Source: a virus
DNA: 32,422 bases
Virus record (IMG/VR): IMGVR_UViG_3300047157_000154
Coordinates: 1 to 32,422 of that record
Reading direction: 5' to 3' (one strand)
Below, in pieces: positions 15,123-18,256 of this stretch (position 1 is the stretch's first letter; each line of letters starts with the position of its first letter). Below the pieces are notes generated by a model. It was not told the origin of the DNA. It saw only the letters and a program-made list of their open reading frames with translations, and searched no databases. A program made the translations under genes and the position numbers.

Positions 15123-15329
15123 ATGACAAATATTTTAGAAAAATTAATAGAATTATACGAGATATCTTACGAAGGAGATAACAACCTAATTACAAGAGGT
15201 TTAATACACGAGATAATTATAGATATCGTTAGCGAAGATTCAATAAAGGCGGATCAAGGTCGTTTAATATTTGATAGGTTATCTAAAATTAGAAGACGAT
15301 CTAATAGAAAAATAAAAGCTACGATATGA
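15123..15329 (+). CDS. Small protein of unknown function before the RecE-like gene
   Basis: The 68-residue protein is helical with an acidic middle and a strongly basic C-terminus (LSKIRRRSNRKIKATI). It overlaps the next start by four bases (ATGA), placing it in the same operon as the RecE-like nuclease and the modification genes. No family is recognised. Confidence 0.5.
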   Translation: MTNILEKLIELYEISYEGDNNLITRGLIHEIIIDIVSEDSIKADQGRLIFDRLSKIRRRSNRKIKATI

Positions 15330-16099
15330 TAACATTACTAAACGGCGATAGTTGGGGCAAAGAAGAAATCTTAGCTCAAATGTACGACGACGAATTTTAT
15401 TACGGTCACTTGGGTAAGTACGCTTTAAGTAGCTCAAGCCTTAAAACTATTCTTAAAAGTCCTAAAACTTATAGAAACGTAATTAAGTACGGAGATCCTA
15501 ATTCGGGAAGTCCGGCGTTATCTTTAGGAAGGCTAGCTCATTGGATGTTGCTAGAGCCTCGAAAAATAGATAAAATACATTTTGTAGATACATCTAAAAA
15601 GAATACTAAAATATACAAAGAAGCAAAAGAAAACGCTAAAGGTGCGGAGGTATTCTTAACAAAAGAAAGAAAAGATACCGAGAGAATAACCGACGCGGTA
15701 TTAAGAAACGAAGCGGCTTTAAAATTACTTAGTAATTCGGAGTTTGAAGTTCCCGAGATCGGATTACTTGAAGGATTACCATTTAGAGCAAAGGCGGATA
15801 TTATGAAAGGCGATACAATTATAGATTATAAAACATCAAGCGATCTTAGAGGATTTAGATACGCGGCTGATAAATACTGTTATGACCTACAAGCCTATTT
15901 ATATTTAAGACTCTTTAATAAAAAGAAGTTTACTTTTTTAGTAGTAGATAAAGGTAGTACCGATATAGCAATATTTGAAGCTAGCGAGGACTTTATCAAT
16001 AAAGGAAAAGAGAAGTTTTATAGCGCCGTTGAGAATTATAAATATTTTTTCCAAGATAATAACGATATTGACCAATACGTTATGCGCGGTATACTATGA
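15326..16099 (+). CDS. RecE-like / PD-(D/E)XK exonuclease
   Basis: The protein has 257 residues. ALSSSSLKTILKSPKTYRNV (33-52), ALSLGRLAHWMLLEP (64-78), GLPFRAKADIM (150-160), TIIDYKTSSDLRGF (164-177) and YDLQAYLYLRL (186-196) reproduce in order the motifs of the RecE/exonuclease VIII-like PD-(D/E)XK group (DUF3799 type): the H of 'G.laH...LEP', D158, D167-x-K169 and Q189. It would resect double-stranded ends to give single strands for Erf. It overlaps the CmoA-like gene by four bases. The large N-terminal extension of E. coli RecE is absent, as in most phage forms. Confidence 0.8.
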   Translation: MITLLNGDSWGKEEILAQMYDDEFYYGHLGKYALSSSSLKTILKSPKTYRNVIKYGDPNSGSPALSLGRLAHWMLLEPRKIDKIHFVDTSKKNTKIYKEAKENAKGAEVFLTKERKDTERITDAVLRNEAALKLLSNSEFEVPEIGLLEGLPFRAKADIMKGDTIIDYKTSSDLRGFRYAADKYCYDLQAYLYLRLFNKKKFTFLVVDKGSTDIAIFEASEDFINKGKEKFYSAVENYKYFFQDNNDIDQYVMRGIL

Positions 16100-16749
16100 A
16101 AGAATTTAGCTTCGATACAATAAAAGATTTTGACGGACATATAAACAAGAGTATACCTTCGTTTAATATATTACTAAACTTAATAGAAAATATTTCTTAT
16201 AGTTTTATTAGAGATAATTACAACGTTTACGACCTAGGTTGCTCAAAAGGTAGTTTACTTTTAAATTTAAGTAAAGGAAATAAAACAAATACTAATTTTG
16301 TAGGATACGATATATCTTCAAACCTTTTACCTAAAGATAAAAACAAAGTTTACTTTTTAAATAAAGATATAACCGAAGAGGATATTAAGTTTATAGATCC
16401 TTCTTTAATATTATCTATTTTTACTCTACAGTTTATTGATTACAATAAGAGACAACCTCTATTAAATAAGATATACAAATCTTTAAATAAGGGAGGAGCT
16501 TTTATCGTTGCGGAAAAGGTTTTTGTTAAGGACTCTTATATACAAGATATCTTTACTTTTGCTTTATACGATTACAAAAGAAATAACTTTACTCCTAGCG
16601 AGATTTTAAGTAAACAAAAAGACTTAAGAAAGATAATGTTTCCCCTTAAGGAAAAAGAAAATATTAAGCTATTTAAAAAAGCCGGGTTTAAAAAAATAGA
16701 GCCTTTCTTCCAATCCTTAAACTTTAAAGCTTGGTTATGTATAAAGTAG
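16096..16749 (+). CDS. CmoA-like carboxy-SAM synthase family protein
   Basis: The 217-residue protein aligns along its length with CmoA rather than with general methyltransferases: FDGHINKSIPSFNILLNLI (12-30) for CmoA's 'F...I.RSVPGY..I', YDLGCSKGSLLLNLS (45-59), IFTLQFIDYNKRQPLLNKIY (108-127), SLNKGGAFIVAEK (129-141), DYKRNNFTPSEI (159-170), LFKKAGFKKIEPFFQSLNF (192-210). CmoA converts SAM and prephenate to carboxy-SAM. E. coli CmoA has about 247 residues; the phage form is shorter between motif I and FTLQF. By ungapped alignment from memory, the E. coli Arg199 position is Gln174 here. No CmoB partner is present; the next gene, overlapped by 13 bases, is a DNA cytosine methyltransferase. Likely role: supply carboxy-SAM for DNA modification. 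Activity is inferred. Confidence 0.75.
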   Translation: MKEFSFDTIKDFDGHINKSIPSFNILLNLIENISYSFIRDNYNVYDLGCSKGSLLLNLSKGNKTNTNFVGYDISSNLLPKDKNKVYFLNKDITEEDIKFIDPSLILSIFTLQFIDYNKRQPLLNKIYKSLNKGGAFIVAEKVFVKDSYIQDIFTFALYDYKRNNFTPSEILSKQKDLRKIMFPLKEKENIKLFKKAGFKKIEPFFQSLNFKAWLCIK

Positions 16750-17822
16750 AATACAAGCCTATAAAATTAAAAGACGTTAAGGAGGAATCTAATAAAAAAC
16801 TATTTAACGTTATTTCTTTCTTTGCCGGAGGAGGAGGTTCTTCTTTAGGATATAGAATGGCGGGAGGAAAAGTTTTAGCAATAAACGAATTTGTAGAAAG
16901 CGCACAAGATACTTACCGGGCTAATTGGGAGGATACAAAAATATACCCTAACGATATAAGGAAAATAAAAGGAGAGGATATACTAAGAGATCTTAACCTC
17001 AAGAAAGGAGAACTAGATATATTAGACGGCTCTCCTCCTTGCGCTTCTTTTTCCGTAGCGGGCAATAGAGAAAAGGATTGGGGTAAAGAAAAGAAGTATA
17101 GTAATAAAACTCAAAAGACCGACGATCTATTTTACGAGTTTGCTAGGATAATAAAAGAAATTCAACCTAAGACTTTTATAGCGGAAAACGTTAAAGGTAT
17201 GTTAATCGGACAAGCTAAAGATTTATTTGGTAGCGATCAATTATCAATGTTCGGAGAGCATAGCGAGACAATATATCATACTTTAACTAATATAGGTTAT
17301 AACGTTTCTTATAGAGTTTTAAACGCTAAAGACTTCGGAGTTCCTCAATCAAGAGAAAGATTAATTATAGTTGGAGTAAGAGACGATATACAAAAAAAGT
17401 TTAAATTTCCTAAACCTTCAAACTATAGGTTTAATTTAAAAGAAGCTTTCGAAGGATTAGAGAATACAAAAGAAGAGCTTAAAGAAGCTAATATAGAAGC
17501 TTACTCTATATATAAAGAATCTAAGAAACTTAAAGAAGGAGAGCAAAGCGTAAAGTATTTTAGTTTAATAAAGACGGATAGGAATAAACCGTCGGGAACT
17601 TTAACTCAAACGGCGGGATCGATATCAGCCGCTTCTATAATACACTGGGAAGATAGAAAGTTTACCGTAAGCGAAGCAAAAAGAATAATGAGCTTTCCGG
17701 ACGATTATAAATTAATAGGAAAGTATAGAGATAAGATAGAGAGACTAGGGAGAGCCGTTCCCCCTTTATTAATGAGATCGGTAGCTAAACAATTATATAA
17801 TTTAATTTTAAAAGAACAATGA
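16737..17822 (+). CDS. C5-cytosine DNA methyltransferase with Arg in motif X (candidate carboxymethyltransferase)
   Basis: The start is ATG 16737 (361 residues), preferred over the in-frame TTG at 16731. Motifs: I at 26-36 (ISFFAGGGGSS), IV GSPPCASFSVAG with catalytic C102 (PCA instead of the common PCQ), VI AENV at 149-152, VIII QSRERLIIVG at 204-213, and X LGRAVPPLLM at 337-346. In nearly all C5-methyltransferases motif X reads GN(S/A)V; here the Asn is Arg339 (AGA, 17751-17753). The corresponding Asn in M.MpeI, when changed to Lys, was reported (as I recall) to let the enzyme use carboxy-SAM and make 5-carboxymethylcytosine. With the overlapping CmoA-like gene, this enzyme may carboxymethylate cytosines in phage DNA. 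Plain methylation remains possible. The target site is unknown. Confidence 0.85.
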   Translation: MYKVEYKPIKLKDVKEESNKKLFNVISFFAGGGGSSLGYRMAGGKVLAINEFVESAQDTYRANWEDTKIYPNDIRKIKGEDILRDLNLKKGELDILDGSPPCASFSVAGNREKDWGKEKKYSNKTQKTDDLFYEFARIIKEIQPKTFIAENVKGMLIGQAKDLFGSDQLSMFGEHSETIYHTLTNIGYNVSYRVLNAKDFGVPQSRERLIIVGVRDDIQKKFKFPKPSNYRFNLKEAFEGLENTKEELKEANIEAYSIYKESKKLKEGEQSVKYFSLIKTDRNKPSGTLTQTAGSISAASIIHWEDRKFTVSEAKRIMSFPDDYKLIGKYRDKIERLGRAVPPLLMRSVAKQLYNLILKEQ

Positions 17823-18256
17823 AACAAATAAATATATTTGGAGAGATAGAAGAAAGAAATTGGTTCGATGATAATTTAAAACAAATTAAGATAGGACTAG
17901 AAGGCGAAAGCCAAATAAGAGCTTTACTAAGTAAAAAGAATATAAAGTTTATGCAAGCCGACTTAATATTTAACTATAACAATCAATACTATTGCGCGGA
18001 GGTTAAAACACAAGAAAAGTATTTAGCTCCTCCGTTTGACGGTCACGGCTTACCAATGTGGCAAATAACCGCAAGGATAGAACTATTTAATAAAACCGGG
18101 ATTATACCTTACCTATTTATTAGATGCTTAACCGATAACTTAGTATACCATCAAGACTTAAGAGAATTAATGCGAACCAAATATTATCAAACAAAAGGAA
18201 AATCCCCAAGAGTAATATTTAATCTAAGCGAATTTAAAAAAAGTAATATTGAGTGA
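17819..18256 (+). CDS. PD-(D/E)XK nuclease-like protein
   Basis: The 145-residue protein has GEGESQIRALL-like opening sequence (LEGESQIRALLSKKNIKF, 27-44), D48, AEVKTQEKYLAPPFDGHGLP (60-79) and MWQITARIELF (80-90). This gives a plausible PD-(D/E)XK site: E31 region, D48, E61-x-K63, Q82, as in junction resolvases and related repair nucleases. It overlaps the methyltransferase stop by four bases (ATGA). It could resolve recombination intermediates or trim genome ends before packaging. A restriction partner of the methyltransferase is less likely given phage context and size. Confidence 0.6.
   Translation: MKQINIFGEIEERNWFDDNLKQIKIGLEGESQIRALLSKKNIKFMQADLIFNYNNQYYCAEVKTQEKYLAPPFDGHGLPMWQITARIELFNKTGIIPYLFIRCLTDNLVYHQDLRELMRTKYYQTKGKSPRVIFNLSEFKKSNIE

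Follow-up and report, generated by a model that had tools for sequence, protein, structure and literature searches.

The closest described system is that of Synechococcus phage S-B43, whose SpCmoX (PDB 8YF3) was identified in a paper of December 2025 as a naturally occurring C5-carboxymethyltransferase of DNA cytosine (PMC12783734). According to that paper, the S-B43 pair was proven by biochemistry, crystallography and mass spectrometry of phage DNA: the phage SpCmoA makes carboxy-SAM (Cx-SAM), and the product of SpCmoX is 5-carboxymethylcytosine (5cxmC), formed at GC. Wild-type SpCmoX accepts Cx-SAM as its only cofactor, and the R350N variant accepts neither Cx-SAM nor SAM. Arg350, which corresponds to Asn304 of HhaI, binds the carboxymethyl group, and C98 is the catalytic residue; ordinary enzymes carry Asn at this motif-X position, and the SpCmoX arginine mirrors the engineered M.MpeI N374K. 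In E. coli expressing SpCmoX, 5cxmC was formed only when cmoA was present, and DNA treated with SpCmoX resisted HhaI. CmoY ligates glycine to 5cxmC in S-B43, and a census counted 4,257 CmoA sequences on the contigs of 5,615 CmoX (PMC12783734).

A more distant relative is the CmoA/CmoB pathway of E. coli, which leads to cmo5U in tRNA. In E. coli CmoA, Arg199 forms a salt bridge with the carboxylate, and proteins related to CmoA were described as conserving this residue (PMC3663124). The locus presented here is like this pathway in its CmoA fold and cofactor chemistry, but differs from it in having no CmoB, in having a DNA C5-methyltransferase as the acceptor enzyme and in not conserving Arg199.

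The window analysed, 32,422 bases in length, is the whole of a linear IMG/VR virus record. Its relevant features, all on the plus strand, are as follows.

15326..16099, plus strand: exonuclease VIII-like gene, immediately 5' of cmoA with a 4-base overlap (PF12684, E 4e-18; phrog_412, E 2.6e-37)
16096..16749, plus strand: cmoA, carboxy-SAM synthase homologue of 217 residues with an ATG start (TIGR00740, PDB 4gek, structure model)
16615..16617, plus strand: codon of CmoA Q174, aligned with the carboxylate-binding Arg199 of the E. coli enzyme (alignment)
16627..16629, plus strand: codon of CmoA R178, one helical turn further on and aligned with E. coli Glu203, a candidate to replace Arg199 as carboxylate clamp (conservation, predicted helix)
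16737..17822, plus strand: cmoX, C5-cytosine DNA carboxymethyltransferase homologue of 361 residues (PF00145, match to 8YF3, SpCmoX)
17040..17042, plus strand: codon of CmoX C102, catalytic cysteine of the GSPPC motif, aligned with SpCmoX C98
17751..17753, plus strand: codon of CmoX R339 in motif X, LGRAVPP, aligned with SpCmoX R350 and HhaI N304
17819..18256, plus strand: gene for a predicted PD-(D/E)XK nuclease of 145 residues with an Hjc-like fold, overlapping cmoX by 4 bases (conserved residues, Foldseek)

The start of cmoX was placed at the ATG at 16737, with the TTG at 16731, to which the open reading frame list extends the frame, as a possible alternative. With the ATG start, the overlap between cmoA and cmoX is exactly 13 bases (16737-16749), the length given in the initial annotation. 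That annotation had also called the two genes fused; it is their frames only that overlap, and no fusion protein is encoded.

The order of exonuclease VIII-like gene, cmoA, cmoX, Hjc-like gene and terminase genes is kept in the window lineage on viral contigs, and persists down to approximately 60-75% identity in CmoA and CmoX. Because this order is conserved in close relatives, the adjacency of cmoA and cmoX is not due to chance. The exonuclease VIII-like gene is a neighbour outside the modification chemistry. The 145-residue gene, which is kept 3' of cmoX in the relatives, occupies the place where a CmoY might stand, and was considered as a new hypermodification enzyme. It has no Pfam or PHROG family match, and weak sequence matches to hexosaminidase PDB entries were judged spurious. 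Its residues D48, E61xK63 and Q65 are invariant. The predicted structure, in which confidence is moderate (pLDDT 62.5), matches Holliday junction resolvases, with a Foldseek match to archaeal Hjc 2wcw (E 1.7e-4). The hypermodification candidate was set aside, and the model suggests that the gene is probably an ordinary phage resolvase with no part in the modification chemistry.

The initial annotation had read the 217-residue protein as a CmoA homologue, and the family searches agree. The protein matches TIGR00740 over residues 4-215 (E 1.8e-37, 129.3 bits), and its best relatives in the PDB are E. coli CmoA 4gek (E 8.9e-26), 4iwn and 1im8. The top matches of its AlphaFold model (pLDDT 84) are likewise CmoA structures, with 4gek aligning over 213 residues at Z 27.3 and an rmsd of 2.1 Å, so that the resemblance to CmoA extends over the full length in both sequence and fold. 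A phenylalanine stands at the position of E. coli Tyr39. General SAM-methyltransferase folds also score high against the model, and the 129.3 bits lie under the TIGR00740 equivalog cut-off of 193.3 bits; both observations would suit a different reading of the locus, namely an ordinary C5-methyltransferase making 5mC beside a CmoA-like methyltransferase with another substrate. The experimentally active SpCmoA, however, scores even lower, at 115.6 bits, and since this proven enzyme also misses the cut-off, the cut-off does not discriminate among phage enzymes.

The residues of the neighbouring enzyme argue against 5mC as the product. The window CmoX was found to be a complete C5-cytosine DNA methyltransferase, as had been proposed, matching PF00145 (E 4e-64) over residues 22-353 of the 360-residue form submitted. 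Its best solved relative is SpCmoX itself (8YF3, E 7.4e-73; next best 9.5e-25), to which it is approximately 41% identical. The catalytic motif is GSPPC, with the cysteine at position 102. In motif X, R339 takes the place of the Asn of ordinary enzymes and aligns with the SpCmoX arginine which, according to PMC12783734, contacts the carboxymethyl group. The overlapping cmoA neighbour is conserved in the relatives. The genes, their order, the conserved residues, the fold and the co-occurrence described below are direct observations of this analysis.

To relate the motif-X residue to the presence of CmoA, viral contigs were searched with the window methyltransferase and with the window CmoA, and motif X was read for each locus. 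Among the relatives of the methyltransferase, whose Arg-type lineages are related and so give counts that are not independent, every Arg-type locus has CmoA with the exception of L019; that locus is cut off at the contig end, and its parallel contig L020 holds CmoA. By contrast, a large phage C5-methyltransferase family with Met in motif X (GMSVPP; L021-L081), which forms one supported clade in the tree sample, comprises approximately 60 enzymes, and CmoA was found in none of their loci, nor in those of the Asn- and Leu-type controls on the tree. The co-occurrence search suggested in the initial annotation thus came out in its favour, and the census in PMC12783734 shows this association on a larger scale. 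In a tree-based test of independent pairs, 4 of 4 informative pairs pointed in the same direction, a number too small for significance. When bacterial genomes were scanned with CmoX, the matches were mainly Met-type methyltransferases lacking CmoA, and no copy in a prophage was found. As Arg-type enzymes sit with CmoA and Met- and Asn-type enzymes do not, we consider an ordinary 5mC enzyme beside a CmoA-like methyltransferase with another substrate very unlikely.

Two loci stand apart in this survey. In Methylophilales phage Melnitz-3 (L186, 2980-4197), a C5-methyltransferase placed within the Arg-type SPPC clade has Leu in motif X (IGLMVAPL) and no CmoA in its locus; this enzyme may have reverted to using another cofactor. 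In L121 (5649-10188), a single CmoA precedes four Arg-type C5-methyltransferases in tandem, as if for four target motifs, and an Asn-synthase match stands elsewhere on the contig.

By analogy with the homologous, experimentally proven pair, the cofactor, product and mechanism of the window pair are very probably the same, and the pair extends an already published system. We hold with high confidence that CmoA and CmoX form a DNA carboxymethylation module. CmoA would convert host SAM and prephenate to carboxy-SAM; Cys102 of CmoX would attack C6 of the target cytosine, and C5 would then receive the carboxymethyl group. By gripping the carboxylate of the cofactor, Arg339 would make the enzyme choose carboxy-SAM rather than SAM. 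The modified base is likely to be 5-carboxymethylcytosine, probably at a short motif; the relative SpCmoX acts at GC, and dinucleotide counts did not point to any target motif (observed/expected for GC, 1.16). The initial annotation had proposed this same route, from carboxy-SAM through the adjacent methyltransferase to 5-carboxymethylcytosine, and the proven S-B43 homologues, R339 and the approximately 41% identity to SpCmoX support it. It had cited the base from an engineered enzyme and left open whether natural cases were reported; natural cases exist and have been published (PMC12783734).

The homology to CmoA, and the habit of annotators of naming such genes tRNA methyltransferase, might instead suggest a remnant of the cmo5U pathway of tRNA modification. 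This is most improbable: a tRNA scan of the record found no tRNA genes, no CmoB was found among the ORFs scanned, both absences having been noted in the initial annotation, and the partner is a DNA C5-methyltransferase with the carboxymethyl-binding arginine. The record also gave no match to Rfam families, and the scanned ORFs included no ligase family. Returning to DNA carboxymethylation, the question of cofactor supply depends on the host. The TerL is nearest to that of Flavobacterium psychrophilum phages, at 50% identity, and the host is probably a flavobacterium; a megablast search of phage records with the first 24 kb found no match. CmoA above the family cut-off was present in 1 of 148 genomes (order of Flavobacterium covae), indicating that the likely hosts rarely supply Cx-SAM. 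If the host is indeed flavobacterial, the phage must therefore supply CmoA itself. The shikimate pathway of the host would provide the prephenate.

In the alignment of the window CmoA, the Arg199 column holds Gln (Q174) in the window CmoA and Glu in SpCmoA, and both proteins have an arginine four residues further on, at the position of E. coli Glu203. This pattern was found in 71 of the 71 CmoAs examined on viral contigs, which were retrieved with a pattern that contained the shifted arginine, although 20 of them do not match it. The shifted arginine as an artefact of retrieval was rejected, as all 20 of these non-matching CmoAs show it too. The E. coli pattern is retained in the CmoA of phages PaBG, Alexandra and Afa-NA1 and in a cellular CmoA (L197) from a flavobacterial sample, and the very divergent CmoA of Moraxella phage Mcat8 has neither arginine. 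Judged by alignment, most phage CmoAs, the proven SpCmoA included, lack Arg199 and have the arginine four residues on, and the window CmoA departs at Arg199 from the E. coli-type subclass but not from the phage type exemplified by SpCmoA. What the activity of SpCmoA shows is that Arg199 is dispensable in its subclass, and this alone. Because Q174 and R178 share one helix (167-180) in the AlphaFold model, it is plausible that the carboxylate clamp has moved by one helical turn in phage CmoAs. The main text of PMC12783734 makes no mention of Arg199, and this arginine detail, together with the motif-X arginine in the further lineages described below, goes beyond that main text.

The window pair differs from that of S-B43 in several respects. 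Both phages have CmoA clustered with a C5-methyltransferase bearing SPPC and the motif-X arginine, with approximately 35% identity in CmoA and 41% in CmoX, and both share the shifted pattern in CmoA. In the window, however, cmoA and cmoX overlap directly, with no CmoY between them or elsewhere on the record, and the host is probably flavobacterial rather than cyanobacterial. Among named phage records, the nearest CmoX by identity is that of Mcat8 (49.7%), where a CmoA homologue adjoins cmoX and the whole record has no Asn_synthase, but where cmoX precedes cmoA. Synechococcus phage S-CRM01 has a directly overlapping cmoA-cmoX pair and no Asn-synthase-like ligase in its complete genome of 178.6 kb, but its host is cyanobacterial and its proteins are approximately 40% (CmoX) and 33% (CmoA) identical to those of the window.

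These comparisons bear on the end product. It is conceivable that 5-carboxymethylcytosine is only an intermediate. An amine would then be attached to it, like the glycine that CmoY attaches in S-B43, either by a ligase encoded in another part of the genome or by an enzyme of the contig that was not recognised. CmoY homologues accompany CmoA and CmoX in S-B43, PaBG, TurkishDelight, L019/L020, L120, L123, L124, L135 and others, and a CmoY-type ligase is present in vB-SscS-F1; several window ORFs have no family, and a linear IMG/VR contig may be a genome fragment, which limits the finding that it has no CmoY. Against this, neither PF00733 nor PF13522 has a match in the record, and no Asn_synthase was found in records G001-G005 of the window relatives. 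Moreover, in the records of S-CRM01, Mcat8 and SPbeta-like, which were submitted as complete genomes, CmoA adjoins a C5-methyltransferase and no Asn_synthase is present, so a ligase-free form of two genes exists. We regard a further ligation as possible but rather doubtful. Since no ligase was found on the possibly incomplete record, the best candidate for the end product in the window phage is bare 5-carboxymethylcytosine, and the unligated modification would probably be the final one.

On viral contigs, CmoA loci also adjoin Arg-type C5-methyltransferases with GFPC (motif X ERCGRTITIP; L122, L128, L131, L134, L140, L151, L161, L168) or SFPC (AGRSIC; L145, L146) in place of SPPC; these were found through CmoA, and their association with it is by construction. 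When the motif-X residue was left out of the tree, the GFPC clade clustered with Asn-type enzymes. Because branches with good support require the Arg label to change at least five times, the motif-X arginine probably arose more than once. The GFPC and SFPC lineages are probably separate origins of the carboxymethyltransferase function. A join of the SFPC and Staphylococcus rows by long branches was not trusted. The GFPC and SFPC enzymes would fall outside the SPPC filter of the census in PMC12783734. The combined proposal, in which bare 5cxmC is final, phage CmoAs form a subclass with a moved arginine, and the CmoX function has at least three independent origins among C5-methyltransferase lineages, with GFPC and SFPC outside the SPPC census, is tentative, and we place it somewhat below an even chance.

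Some CmoA loci are of a different kind. In Staphylococcus phages vB-SscS-F1 and SPbeta-like (L095, 6485-7492; L096, 5669-6667), CmoA adjoins a C5-methyltransferase with Gly in place of the motif-X Arg (VVGGVINQLHL); a CmoY-like gene is present in one of the two, and no Asn-synthase was found in the record of the other. In Erwinia phage Alexandra (L110, 3962-6661), an E. coli-type CmoA is followed by a DUF1611 protein and by an Asn synthase resembling CmoY. No C5-methyltransferase was found within this 8.7 kb locus, and the acceptor may be a different one. In Alcaligenes phage Afa-NA1 (L112, 3944-8488), CmoA occurs with a D12-class N6-adenine methyltransferase approximately 2.5 kb downstream, again with no C5-methyltransferase found in the 8.7 kb locus, which offers a lead to non-cytosine carboxymethylation.

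The probable role of the modification, which we infer for the window phage, would be to protect its DNA from host nucleases. The window pair extends a natural DNA modification of recent discovery to a lineage of phages whose hosts are probably flavobacteria, and represents a compact, ligase-free version of the CmoA-CmoX system. A negatively charged, reactive carboxyl group on cytosine at short motifs would be of use for DNA labelling and sequencing. Most worth following are the displaced arginine of CmoA, the form without a ligase and the additional methyltransferase lineages. If the parallel arginine lineages are confirmed with enzymes, the published count would be too low, and the occurrence of this arginine in separate methyltransferase families beside CmoA would mean that one residue change and a cofactor gene can repeatedly create a new DNA base.
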